Shown in pieces: positions 22,197 to 26,303 of a stretch of 26,303 bases of DNA. A model generated the notes under the pieces. That model did not search any database, was not told the origin of the DNA, and was given only the letters and a program-made list of their open reading frames with translations. This DNA comes from a virus. Location: IMG/VR virus record IMGVR_UViG_3300034166_000656, positions 1 through 26,303 of that record. One strand, given 5' to 3'. The translations under genes and the position numbers were made by a program. The stretch's first letter is position 1. Every line of letters starts with the position of its first letter.

Positions 22197-22233
22197 CTAG
22201 CGGTAGTTGGGCTATGGCCTAGCGGTAGTTGGG
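22197..22233. promoter_or_regulatory. paired operator-like direct repeats
   Basis: CTAGCGGTAGTTGGG occurs identically at 22197-22211 and 22219-22233, starts 22 bp apart, or two helical turns. A -35-like TTGACA (minus strand, 22245-22240) lies just upstream of the second copy, but its -10 is poor. The core CGGTAGTT recurs in the promoters at 22847-22875 and 23215-23242. This looks like the binding site of one early regulator. Confidence 0.6.
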
Positions 22234-22377
22234 TCATCGTGTCAAGGCACCGGCGAGGCCGGCCAGCAACTCGAGCAGGTCGTGGATGGCACGGGCAGCC
22301 GGCGAGTCGGTGCCGAGCTCCTGGCCGATGCGGACAAGGACGAGCGATTGCAGGGCAGCGTTCCAGCGGCGGCTCAT
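22234..22377 (-). CDS. 47-residue helical protein
   Basis: The frame reads MSRRWNAALQSLVLVRIGQELGTDSPAARAIHDLLELLAGLAGALTR, an amphipathic helical protein. Its ATG forms an ATGA overlap with the upstream stop. Its stop codon touches the paired operator-like repeats. Too short to classify; translational coupling supports it. Confidence 0.6.
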   Translation of the reverse strand: MSRRWNAALQSLVLVRIGQELGTDSPAARAIHDLLELLAGLAGALTR

Positions 22378-22619
22378 CGGCGGCCCCCTGTCCTGGCCCG
22401 GCTTTCCGGGGCGTATTCGCCGCACCCGTAGATGCGGTCCTCAATGTCTTGGAGCGTGGGCAGGAGCGACTTGAGATCCCCAACGTCACCCCACGTGGCC
22501 TGCTCCTTGCCGGATGCCACAGCGTCTTTAGTCGCCTTCAGCTGGCCAAGGATCGACTCAAGAAGGCCGATGACGTAGAGCGAATTGCGGGCGTGTTCGT
22601 TTTGTATTTCGTTGTTCAT
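22374..22619 (-). CDS. hypothetical early protein
   Basis: This 81-residue protein starts MNNEIQNEHARNSLYVIGLLESILGQLKATKDAV and continues with KSLLPTLQDIEDRIYGCGEY. It is largely helical and soluble. The start has only a weak Shine-Dalgarno; an in-frame upstream extension of 22 residues would overlap the preceding gene. It is coupled to the next small gene. No family recognised. Confidence 0.65.
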   Translation of the reverse strand: MNNEIQNEHARNSLYVIGLLESILGQLKATKDAVASGKEQATWGDVGDLKSLLPTLQDIEDRIYGCGEYAPESRARTGGRR

Positions 22620-22644
22620 GGTTTGTCTTGTTGTGACGGGATGG

Positions 22645-22794
22645 CTAGGACGCCATGGCCTCGGCGATGATCTGGCGGCACTCACGGATGCCGCAGAGCT
22701 TCAGCGTGTAGGCCATCCAGCGGGCGGTCTTCTCAACGTTGCCGCGATCCATCGCCACCCACTTCCGCACCTGCTCGACTGTCTTGGCGTCCAT
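22645..22794 (-). CDS. 49-residue early protein
   Basis: The frame reads MDAKTVEQVRKWVAMDRG, then NVEKTARWMAYTLKLCGIRECRQ, then IIAEAMAS. GGGAG lies 8 nt before the ATG, and a promoter with a 17-nt spacer lies upstream at 22847-22875. It is basic and helical, and the first gene expressed from that promoter. Found by reading directly because it is short. Function unknown. Confidence 0.65.
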   Translation of the reverse strand: MDAKTVEQVRKWVAMDRGNVEKTARWMAYTLKLCGIRECRQIIAEAMAS

Positions 22795-22846
22795 CGTTTT
22801 GTCTCCCGGCTGGCGTTGCGTCAGGTCTCATGTGCCCGACGCCCCT

Positions 22847-22875
22847 ACTGTATGGTATCGGTAGTTAGGCGTCAA
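22847..22875 (-). promoter_or_regulatory. leftward promoter with CGGTAGTT element in the spacer
   Basis: Read on the minus strand: TTGACG (22875-22870), a 17-nt spacer, then TACAGT (22852-22847). The spacer contains CCTAACTACCG (plus strand CGGTAGTTAGG, 22859-22869). A protein bound there would block RNA polymerase. It would transcribe the 49-residue gene and onward. The rest of the 128-nt gap (22795-22922) holds no gene. Confidence 0.6.
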
Positions 22876-22922
22876 GGGGATAAATAGGATTTTCGGGGGG
22901 TGAGTTTTCGCCGGGGAAAACG

Positions 22923-23198
22923 CTACTTCTGGCCGGGCTTCCGGCGGGCCGCCTTTTTCCGCTTGGCGGCTGGCCGCTTGGCCAGGTGCTTCTTGCCAAC
23001 CGACCGTGTGGTCAGGGCGTCTCGAGCCTGCTTGGCGGCCGACGTGGGGATGAGCCAGACACGCTGCCCGATCCGGCGTGCGCCCGGCAGCTTGCCCTCG
23101 CGGAGCAGGATTCGGACCCAGCCGTCTGTGCAGCCCATGAGCTCAACGGCCTCGGTGACCGTGAGGTATTCGCCGCCGTCAAGTTTTTGCGGTGCCAT
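22923..23198 (-). CDS. excisionase/MerR-like HTH protein with basic tail
   Basis: This 91-residue protein has a HTH_17-type winged helix at residues about 8-55: EYLTVTEAVELMGCTDGWVRILLREGKLPGARRIGQRVWLIP. A tail of lysine and arginine repeats follows (KKHLAKRPAAKRKKAARRKPGQK). It is divergent from integrase, the normal place for an excisionase or early regulator. The ATG at 23198 has GAGGG 9 nt upstream. An ATG at 23207 lies 7 nt after a TAGTAT -10, so leaderless translation from there is also possible. Its own promoter contains the CGGTAGTT motif, suggesting autoregulation. Confidence 0.82.
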   Translation of the reverse strand: MAPQKLDGGEYLTVTEAVELMGCTDGWVRILLREGKLPGARRIGQRVWLIPTSAAKQARDALTTRSVGKKHLAKRPAAKRKKAARRKPGQK

Positions 23199-23214
23199 TG
23201 CAACCATCCCTCAG

Positions 23215-23242
23215 ATACTACAGTTAGCCGGTAGTTGGTCAA
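23215..23242 (-). promoter_or_regulatory. leftward promoter of the HTH gene, with CGGTAGTT element
   Basis: Read on the minus strand: TTGACC (23242-23237), a 16-nt spacer, then TAGTAT (23220-23215). The element CGGTAGTTGG (23229-23238, plus strand) lies across the spacer and -35. Transcription would start near 23208, giving a very short or no leader. It is back to back with the integrase promoter. Confidence 0.5.
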
Positions 23243-23286: not shown

Positions 23287-23354
23287 ATCAACCGACCCGC
23301 CAAGGGCCGATTGTTCAAACGGATGGGGTGCAGATTGAACGCCTGTACACCATC
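23274..23354. repeat. direct repeat in the integrase leader (possible arm-type sites)
   Basis: AACGCTGTACACTATC at 23274-23289 recurs as AACGCCTGTACACCATC at 23338-23354. Between them GTTCAA (23313-23318) and TTGAAC (23335-23340) form an inverted repeat. Repeats of this size beside integrase genes are often arm-type integrase sites or operators. The attachment core itself cannot be identified from this window. Confidence 0.4.
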
Positions 23355-23366
23355 GGATACATTCGC

Positions 23367-23395: not shown

Positions 23396-24310
23396 ATGAC
23401 GCTGCGAGACCTGCTGATTGATCGTATTGCCCCGCTGAAGAACTTGAACGACCGCTCGGTGGCGATGTACCTGAGCACGCTGGAGCGGTTCAGGGACTTC
23501 CTCGGCCACGAGCCTACGGTGGATGACCTTGATGACCTGACGGCCGCCAAGTTTCTCCGGTGGCGGGCCAGCACCGTGCACAGCAAGTGCCGTGGGCTGA
23601 TCTCGCCGGCCAGCCTAGCCAAAGACTCTGCTCACCTGCGGAGCCTGTGGACGTGGCTCGCAAAGAAGAGATGGAAGAAGTCGAACGGCGAACTGCTCGA
23701 GTTCCCCGACTACGCCCGGCCCCGCGTCCCAAAGCCCGTGCCGAAGGCGTACAAGGCCGATGAGCTCGCTAGGCTCATCAAGACGGCGCGGCACCGAAAG
23801 GGCCATGTAGCTGGCAAGCCGGCCGCCTGGTACTGGGTGACGAAGCTCTTGGCTATGTTCCAGACCGGCGAGCGGATCGGGGCCGTCCTTGCCCTCCGCT
23901 GGTCCGAGGTGGATCTGGAGCGGCATACCCTGACGTTCCTCGCCGCCACACGTAAAGGCCACAGGGAGACGATTACACGCCCGATCACGCCGCAGCTGGC
24001 CGAATACCTAGCCATGCACAAGGGGGCTCCTGGCGAGCGTGTGTGGCCCTGGTTGGATGACCGGGAATTGCTGTCGTGCTACTCGTCTCTCAGGGTGCTG
24101 TGCCGCACGGCTGGCGTGCCATACCTGCCGTTCCACAGCATCCGCAAGGCGACGGCCTCTTACCTGAAGCGGGCCGGAATCTCAGCCAAGAAGCAGCTGG
24201 GCCACAGCAGCGAAGAGATGGCCGAGACCCACTACTATGACGAAGACATCACTGGCCGGGAGTCCAACCTCGACTACCTGCCGGATATCAACGAGCCGCC
24301 GGCGGCTTGA
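23396..24310 (+). CDS. int: tyrosine recombinase (phage integrase)
   Basis: This 304-residue protein has an N-terminal SAM-like core-binding domain (residues about 5-100: SVAMYLSTLERFRDFLG, LTAAKFLRW, LRSLWTWL). The catalytic domain has Arg160 in TGERIGAVLALRW, Lys187 in TRKGHRET, His247 and Arg250 in FHSIRKATASYL, His270 in LGHSSEEM, and Tyr281 (or Tyr280) in ETHYYDED as nucleophile. It inserts and excises the phage at att sites. GGGAG lies 7 nt before the ATG. It is the only plus-strand gene I support here, divergent from the HTH gene and convergent with the small gene at 24375. Confidence 0.93.
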   Translation: MTLRDLLIDRIAPLKNLNDRSVAMYLSTLERFRDFLGHEPTVDDLDDLTAAKFLRWRASTVHSKCRGLISPASLAKDSAHLRSLWTWLAKKRWKKSNGELLEFPDYARPRVPKPVPKAYKADELARLIKTARHRKGHVAGKPAAWYWVTKLLAMFQTGERIGAVLALRWSEVDLERHTLTFLAATRKGHRETITRPITPQLAEYLAMHKGAPGERVWPWLDDRELLSCYSSLRVLCRTAGVPYLPFHSIRKATASYLKRAGISAKKQLGHSSEEMAETHYYDEDITGRESNLDYLPDINEPPAA

Positions 24311-24374: not shown

Positions 24375-24581
24375 TCAATCTCCACGGATGTGCGACAGCG
24401 ACGGCAACTCGTCCCGCTGGGCAATCGTTACGGCCAGCCGCCCCTTCACACGCGAGAGCTCGGCGAGCAGCCGCATGACGTGGCCGGCGAGCGTTCCAGC
24501 CGTTCCGGTGTAGGCACCCTGGAACTTGCGGGCGTCGAACTCGCACTGCTGCAGGTAGGCGTCAGAGAGTGGCTCGCTCAT
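24375..24581 (-). CDS. small hypothetical protein
   Basis: This 68-residue protein starts MSEPLSDAYLQQCEFDARKFQGAYTGTAGTLAGHVMRLLAELSRVKGRLAVTI. It is helical and soluble. Its ATG forms an ATGA overlap with the XF1762-like gene stop, so the two are likely translated together. No family recognised. Confidence 0.7.
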   Translation of the reverse strand: MSEPLSDAYLQQCEFDARKFQGAYTGTAGTLAGHVMRLLAELSRVKGRLAVTIAQRDELPSLSHIRGD

Positions 24582-25033
24582 TGCGTAACCTCAAACAGCA
24601 GTTTCTTCTGCGTCGGATGCTTGTCCACTCGAGGACGGCTCTGGCAGTTCCAGCTGCCGCCTCCACGCTGACCAAGGCACTTCCATCCAGCGGCCTTGAG
24701 AGTCACGCCAGGCTCGCAATCCAAGATGTACGTTATGCACCGCCTATATCCCAGGGATTTGGCCGAACGCCACGCAGCACTGTAGAGGCACGAGCAAGCG
24801 TTAGGGCATCCATCGCTGGCGAGTCTTGTGACTTCAAGCGTCCACCCATCGTCATTACCACGGGCCACCGGGCGTCCAACCATGCACACGCCTCGGACAG
24901 TGCCGGATTCGTCGGCCACGGCGAGTGAGAACTTACGGCCCACTGGCGGACGATGATGCCGATGGTGCTGACGTACAAAAGAAACAGCCTCCGAGAATTC
25001 GCACGGCACGACGTGTAGCCGTGGCTGCGTCAC
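24578..25033 (-). CDS. XF1762-like (GNAT-type) phage protein
   Basis: This 151-residue protein has the segments I recall from the phage protein family named after Xylella XF1762: HRHHRPPVGRKFSLAVAD, RGVCMVGRPVARGNDDGWTLEVTRLASDGCPNACSCLYSAAWRSAKSLGYRRCITYIL, GVTLKAAGWKCLG and GGGSWNCQSRPRVDKHPT. The arrangement suggests a GNAT-like acyltransferase fold. Substrate and biological role are unknown. The GTG start forms a GTGA overlap with the DUF1599-like gene. Confidence 0.83.
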   Translation of the reverse strand: MTQPRLHVVPCEFSEAVSFVRQHHRHHRPPVGRKFSLAVADESGTVRGVCMVGRPVARGNDDGWTLEVTRLASDGCPNACSCLYSAAWRSAKSLGYRRCITYILDCEPGVTLKAAGWKCLGQRGGGSWNCQSRPRVDKHPTQKKLLFEVTQ

Positions 25034-25542: not shown

Positions 25543-26303
25543 TCCTTGGCCTTTCGTAGGTCTCGGTCACAAAATATTCGGTACGCCTTCGTCATCTCGT
25601 TCCGATCGTGGTCAATCACGATGGCGGCCTGGCACGGATGCTCGCCGCCTTCGGCCTTGATCCTCACGCTGTACGCCGAAGGCCCGATGACACTGCCATT
25701 CGTGACGTAGTTGCGGCCGACGCTGAACTGGTGCCAATGTCCGATGCACGTCAAGTCGGCCCGCTGCGTCGTGTCCCACGCTGCAATGGCCTTCTTGAGT
25801 GGCACATGCACGCCACCGATTCCGCCCTGAAACTTCACGGCGTGGCCATGACAGAACCGCATGGCGAACCCGTCGAGGTCGAGATAGTTGAGATGCCCTT
25901 CTCCGATATGCCACCGCACGTTTTTCCGTGACTCGGCGGCCCGCATCGTCAGATACAGGTGCTGCTCGTAGGACGTGTCGGCCTCGTTGGTGCGGAGCTT
26001 CTCGGTAGTTCTCCCGTGGTTGCCGCACGACGTAGCGACGATGACTTCCTTGGCGTTGTCCGAGACGGCATCAAGAAACCCACGCAGCCGCTCGCCAATC
26101 CAACGGATGGCGGCCAGCGGGTGCAGGCTGTTCTCCTCGGCAAGTTCTGGGTGGATCATGCCAGAGATCATGTCGCCGCCAAGCCAGAGCACGACGCGGT
26201 CGATGCTGGCCAGCCCACGCTCGTGCTCAAGCATCGCCAAGAACCGCTGCTGCAGTTCAGCCATGCGGGCATCGCACACGTCGAGGTCATAGGCATTGGT
26301 GCC
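25539..26303 (-). CDS. calcineurin-like metallophosphoesterase (partial at 5' end)
   Basis: The frame is open to the window edge and reads GTNAYDLDVCDARMAELQQ at its visible start, so the true start lies outside. At least 254 residues are present. Metal-binding motifs include GGDMISG, SCGNHGR, CHGHAVKF and CIGHWHQF, typical of phosphoesterases of this superfamily. It may cleave nucleic acids or nucleotides; substrate is unknown. It is followed by three coupled genes (DUF1599, XF1762, small protein), which probably form one operon. Confidence 0.88.
   Translation of the reverse strand, partial: GTNAYDLDVCDARMAELQQRFLAMLEHERGLASIDRVVLWLGGDMISGMIHPELAEENSLHPLAAIRWIGERLRGFLDAVSDNAKEVIVATSCGNHGRTTEKLRTNEADTSYEQHLYLTMRAAESRKNVRWHIGEGHLNYLDLDGFAMRFCHGHAVKFQGGIGGVHVPLKKAIAAWDTTQRADLTCIGHWHQFSVGRNYVTNGSVIGPSAYSVRIKAEGGEHPCQAAIVIDHDRNEMTKAYRIFCDRDLRKAKE

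Follow-up and report, generated by a model that had tools for sequence, protein, structure and literature searches.

General features of the window

The window, that is, the whole stretch of DNA analysed here, is a 26.3 kb virus record from IMG/VR. Pfam and PHROG profiles recognise genes for a terminase, a replication initiation protein, RecT, a Holliday junction resolvase-like protein and an integrase, and on this gene content it is a tailed, presumably temperate phage. A Mom-like DNA modification protein is encoded at 24578-25033 on the minus strand (PHROG 2e-37; Pfam Mom below the cut-off). A blastn search of the window against annotated phages gave zero matches; with tblastn, the HTH protein matches over part of its length only and the integrase matches are distant. 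The HTH family is nearly absent from the bacterial genomes searched. One relative, phage contig L186, is held in a Planctomycetota MAG, and the window probably comes from an uncultured temperate phage of Planctomycetota. The features of its early region are listed in Table 1.

Table 1. Features of the early region and their positions in the window
Feature	Position	Strand	Sequence and remarks
P3 operator, second copy	22198..22208	-	AACTACCGCTA; exactly 22 bp downstream of the upstream copy
P3 operator, upstream copy	22220..22230	-	AACTACCGCTA
Possible -35 of P3	22240..22245	-	TTGACA; weak -10
P4	22123..22150	-	TTGACG-16-TACACT; upstream of 72-aa gene (ATG 22092) and recT/replication genes
LexA-type box at P4	22125..22138	-	TGAACGGATTTACA; 10.3 bits, second best in window
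Small conserved protein	22234..22425	-	ends just ahead of P3; ORF listed from upstream GTG
First open frame past P2	22645..22794	-	49 aa; GGGAGA ahead
Hairpin at predicted 5' end of P2 transcript	22818..22842	-	GCGTCGGG-CACATGAGA-CCTGACGC
P2	22847..22875	-	TTGACG-17-TACAGT
Operator at P2	22856..22866	-	AACTACCGATA; best matrix hit in window; conserved at ~+330 in relatives
HTH protein	22923..23207	-	94 aa; HTH_17/excisionase-like winged helix, basic C-terminal tail; Pfam HTH_17 6e-8; PHROG HTH and excisionase families
P1, HTH gene promoter	23215..23242	-	TTGACC-16-TAGTAT; conserved in relatives
Operator at P1	23217..23236	-	AACTACCG-GCTAA-CTGTAGT; imperfect dyad
Candidate attP core	23318..23340	+	by position only
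Pint, inferred integrase promoter	23335..23363	+	TTGAAC-17-TACATT; direct reading; region compared in relatives
LexA-type box at Pint	23336..23349	+	TGAACGCCTGTACA; 18.6 bits, best in window
Tyrosine integrase	23396..24310	+	divergent from HTH gene; Phage_integrase 6e-10; PHROG integrase 7e-29

The HTH protein belongs with the HTH_17 and excisionase-like proteins: its Pfam match is above the cut-off and it matches excisionase families of PHROG at 1e-4 to 6e-3. Its structure model (pLDDT 70) has a MerR-type winged-helix fold in which helix 28-37 is the predicted recognition helix. Fold matches of the model in the PDB include Xis of mycobacteriophage Pukovnik, BldC and Tn916 Xis, none of them below E 0.001; Pukovnik Xis and BldC have the MerR-type winged helix in common with it, but sequence similarity is weak (E 0.095 for Pukovnik Xis). 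The start codon of the gene, at 23207, lies 7 nt past the -10 of P1. As the ATG follows the -10 by 6-7 nt in most relatives, the HTH mRNA is predicted to be leaderless.

In relatives, 5 of 5 stem pairs of the hairpin past P2 show changes on both sides, and 96% of cells are paired, compared with 22-37% after sliding; the stem thus changes with compensation, while its loop, nnnTGAGA, is mostly unchanged. No family match was found for the 49-aa frame in profile searches. The small protein ahead of P3 is about 46 aa long in relatives, has members in 52 of them and carries the motif LVLVR[IL]GQELGTDS; no Pfam match was found for the window's member. P4 lies some 50-150 bp past P3 and is without a P3-type operator site.

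In many relatives the interval separating the HTH and integrase genes contains the 15-mer AGCGGAGGGCATGGG, and the same 15-mer is found at the 3' end of tRNA-Ser(GGA) on another contig of the MAG that holds L186. The integration site of a relative is at the tRNA-Ser(GGA) 3' end (L276, 1432-1514; L279, near 1500). The window differs from this 15-mer at its candidate attP core, and a search for an attB for the window's own attP-like core found none. An element, GTACANNGTTTCNAGT, adjoins the integrase promoter and in some relatives also lies between P3 and P4; its positions relative to the HTH start are -76 in L005, +1728 in L007, and others.

A conserved motif at the early promoters

Read on the minus strand, the motif is AACTACCG(C/A)TA and occurs at P1, at P2 and twice at P3. 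As CGGTAGTTRG it has four copies on the plus strand of the window, at 22201, 22223, 22859 (CGGTAGTTAG) and 23229, and no copies on the minus strand, so that the single orientation described in an earlier sequence-only reading holds; the reversed pattern, taken as a control, matches once. The twin 15-bp copies 22 bp apart described in that reading are also present, one base to the right of where it had placed them: the two copies of the 15-mer CTAGCGGTAGTTGGG begin at 22198 and 22220, not at 22197 and 22219. Direct 15-mer repeats at most 60 bp apart arise about 0.005 times per Markov-shuffled window, and an identical pair is very unlikely by chance. Exact matches to the 15-mer exist in other viral contigs. 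P1 and P2 had been called as promoters overlapping the motif; both calls are correct, and both promoters are on the minus strand. The shape of the sites needs correction: the motif copies stand, but in full the P1 site forms a dyad, ACTACCG-N5-CGGTAGT, and P3 is a double site resembling a promoter. A loose 10-mer search allowing 2 mismatches was uninformative, its 27 matches being barely above the 19.4 expected by chance.

Related loci were gathered from viral contigs in three overlapping sets of 80 each, found through the HTH protein, the integrase and the HTH alignment, respectively. The layout P1-P2-P3 is kept in relatives (about 90 viral contigs). It had been proposed that absence of the motif from matching promoters of relatives would count against an operator; the motif is there. 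Upstream of the HTH gene, most relatives have TTTGAC[C/T]AACTACCG-N5-CGGTAGTAT or a variant of it and then the ATG, and perfect CTACCG-N5-CGGTAG dyads are found at P1 of L008, L081 and L084. A second promoter with AASTRMCGATA follows about 330 bp downstream of the HTH start, and the P3 pair lies at +565 to +2376 bp, with a spacing of 22 bp in all 39 pairs found. In many relatives P3 looks promoter-like, with TTGAC 1-2 bp ahead of the first copy and TAGCCT 16-17 bp further. Nearly every match to the 11-base pattern in these loci falls at the P1, P2 or P3 place.

An operator matrix was trained on relatives, with window-like ones excluded, and about 52,000 window positions were scored. Its top three hits are the P2 site and both P3 sites (21.8, 20.3 and 20.3 bits); the fourth, at 26000-26010, lies within a coding frame. 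The P1 site is outside the top hits because its half-site is followed by GCTA, and not by CTA or ATA. It is plausible that these sites serve as operators in the choice between lysis and lysogeny.

Residue 36 of the HTH protein and the operator base

The operator exists in two forms, AACTACCG (ACCG) and AASTGACG/AASTAACG (GACG/AACG). P2 and P3 of one genome share the form, which differs between genomes and is predicted without exception at both places by residue 36, in the recognition helix of the HTH protein. At P2, where the search pattern admitted A, C or G but not T at position 6, Arg goes with C in 22 of 22 loci, Gly with a base other than C in 52 of 52, and Ile with A in 10 of 10 (84/84). 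At P3, Arg goes with C (14/14) and Gly with A (25/25), so that all 39 loci agree. The rule, first noticed in the initial 80 loci, was also obeyed by loci collected or inspected afterwards. Near-sisters split by residue 36 obey it (L236 and L247, with Arg and ACCG, against L141, L147 and L150, with Gly and AACG), and the distant L155, which has Arg, carries the perfect dyads CTCTACCG-CCTG-CGGTAGAG and TTTACCG-ATAG-CGGTAAA. Arginine reading the G of a C:G pair is a textbook contact.

Residue 36 has an uncertainty coefficient (U) of 1.0. The next HTH columns, 28 (0.69) and 33 (0.64), belong to the same helix, whereas the best integrase column reaches 0.34 and integrase columns do not track the operator form. 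Since the form of the operator follows a recognition-helix residue and not the integrase, the HTH protein is very probably the regulator that binds the motif, a role for which it had been only tentatively put forward. All 10 independent pairs with support on the integrase tree agree (p 0.002); the test is weakened because P2 adjoins the HTH gene and both can move together by recombination; P3 is further from the HTH gene than P2, yet still linked. On an HTH tree built without column 36 each trait changes 4 times, and the changes agree; the 3 supported pairs (p 0.25) are too few for significance.

P1 obeys the rule partly, with C at position 6 in 8 of 12 loci with Arg against 5 of 32 others (Fisher p 0.002, kinship ignored). 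The P1 spacers are quite different between some near-identical HTH proteins, such as those of L075 and L080. This variation had first raised the suspicion of a separate immunity repressor, which was overturned by the covariation at P2 and P3.

LexA-type boxes at P4 and the integrase promoter

The sequence-only reading saw no classical CI-type repressor in the window, and the same is true of 29 related records: neither HTH_3 above the cut-off nor Peptidase_S24 was found in these records, which may be incomplete, while control genomes were detected. These records show no sign of a switch built on a CI-type (HTH_3/S24) repressor.

P4 and the integrase promoter have TGNAC-N4-GTNCA in common. In the order of Planctomycetota to which the MAG belongs, TG[AT]AC-N4-GT[AT][CT]A is found in 24 of 29 usable lexA upstream regions (L281 and L293-L322) and in 0 of the reversed control, and for recA of that order 27 of 28 upstream regions outscore their reversed control. 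The one statement met in the literature searched is that the LexA of Planctomycetes does not use the E. coli motif (PMC3108266). Our LexA model is a palindromic matrix built from the Planctomycetota lexA boxes alone, and the order of this one MAG may not be that of the window's host; its two best hits in the window are those at Pint and P4, the third reaching 6.1 bits. The P4 box of the window is imperfect, with TTACA in place of GTACA. In 33 of the 34 relatives that have a P3 pair, the highest-scoring hit falls in the Pint or P4 region (3.6 with permuted models), and in 28 of them the two highest fall one per region (0.17 with permuted models). Judged by sequence, then, boxes of the host LexA type stand in early promoters of these phages at a computed excess, and host LexA likely controls the integrase gene and the early operon. 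Such control would account for the missing phage CI. This LexA-type layer, which the earlier reading had not seen, probably matters as much as the HTH layer.

Regulatory model and alternatives

The best explanation, which we hold to be probable, is that the motif is an operator half-site of the phage's excisionase-like winged-helix protein and that this protein forms a two-layer switch together with host LexA. At P1, its own promoter, and at P2 the HTH protein would sit between the -35 and the -10; at P3, which precedes the recombination/replication operon, it would bind both of the copies spaced by 22 bp. Arg36 lies close to the end of the recognition helix and would read the C:G pair in ACCG; relatives with Gly or Ile at this residue have another base at that place in the operator, nearly always A. 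While the conservation of sites and layout and the covariation of residue and base are computed, the physical binding, its sign and any part in excision are what we infer. Most likely the protein blocks RNA polymerase and acts, much as Cox or Apl do, as an early repressor that also regulates its own gene; this is the simplest reading because the operator fills the normal 16-17 bp spacers of P1 and P2. In the second layer, host LexA would act at P4 and Pint, and DNA damage would release the replication and integrase genes from it without a CI made by the phage.

It is also conceivable, though we think it unlikely, that the HTH protein uses the same sites in another role, either activating P1-P3 as MerR does or acting as the repressor that maintains lysogeny rather than as an early, Cro-like regulator. 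Its fold is also that of MerR-type activators and the -10 of P3 is weak. MerR promoters have 19-20 bp spacers. P1 and P2, with good hexamers and spacers of 16 and 17 bp, are not over-long in this way and need no MerR-type untwisting. A precedent for activation is the excisionase XisF4 of Pf4, which activates a replication gene (PMC7379572).

That another phage protein, such as the 46-aa protein ahead of P3 or an unrecognised repressor, binds the motif while the HTH residue merely travels along seems quite improbable. Exchange can move the whole stretch as one block, and a column of the 46-aa family and a column of RecT reach U values of 0.72 and 0.76. These columns are, however, highly variable and come from smaller samples; 1.0 is reached by HTH residue 36 only, with the two next-best HTH columns in the same helix. 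By eye, no further DNA-binding domain was found among the proteins conserved between P2 and P3, whose members in the window have no family match.

The position of the motif in the P1 and P2 spacers, beside TTGAC, could suggest that it is no phage operator but an extended promoter element, used by host RNA polymerase or by a host factor. We give this very little credence: the second P3 copy lies outside a -35/-10 spacer, the distance from TTGAC varies from 1 to 10 bp, and the form of the motif tracks a residue of a phage protein. Least credible of all is that these are excisionase sites for recombination only, near promoters by mere placement, as the excisionase-like fold and the position of P1 about 80 bp from the candidate attP core might indicate, for P2 and P3 are each in or beside a promoter, and their distance of 0.35-2.4 kb from the attP region, across variable genes, is more than a usual attP would span.

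Comparison with known systems and implications

The proposed autoregulated repressor resembles Apl of coliphage 186 and Cox of P2-like phages in being a small winged-helix protein of the excisionase kind beside a tyrosine integrase system, with an attP-like core between the HTH gene and the integrase gene in relatives, and in its proposed action on early promoters and its own region. The binding of Apl is strongly cooperative and of low sequence specificity, and its targets are direct repeats spaced by one helical turn (PMC7498355). Here, in contrast, the sites are strongly conserved, are dyads at P1 or direct pairs 22 bp apart, and follow a strict code of one residue and one base; a CI-type partner was not found in the records searched. 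We therefore do not file the system as a member of the Apl/Cox type. RdfS of ICEMlSymR7A is a winged-helix directionality factor that binds its own promoter and attP (PMC11963761); it is similar in having sites at its own promoter, which here are predicted, but it has no consensus motif, whereas the motif here is sharp. XisF4 of the filamentous phage Pf4 is an excisionase that also regulates replication genes (PMC7379572); in Pf4 a repressor C gene adjoins it, while no CI-like gene was found here.

For the LexA layer the closest likeness is the Bacillus phage GIL01, in which host LexA keeps lysogeny through LexA boxes in phage promoters and there is no dedicated phage repressor (PMC6182141). 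The phages studied here appear similar, having LexA-type boxes in phage promoters and no phage repressor that we could find. GIL01 uses gp7 and gp6 and does not integrate (PMC9700832); the present phages encode an integrase and an excisionase-like regulator, and their integrase promoter carries LexA-type boxes as well. By analogy, the system may be described as an excisionase-regulator in the manner of Apl, Cox and XisF4 combined with LexA-kept lysogeny like that of GIL01.

Excisionase-type regulators have been described as loose readers of DNA. Here there is apparently a sharp and evolvable code, open to swaps of a single residue and a single base. Of more doubtful standing, and put forward as speculation, is a wider view: integrating Planctomycetota phages of one large family would lack a repressor of their own, the whole lysis-lysogeny switch would consist of host LexA and the excisionase-like protein, and residue 36 would set the operator specificity and thus the immunity group. 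No repressor system of temperate Planctomycetota phages was described in the literature searched. The loci suggest how temperate phages of Planctomycetota may couple to the DNA damage of their hosts, and for one order of this phylum they supply a LexA box that can be put to use.
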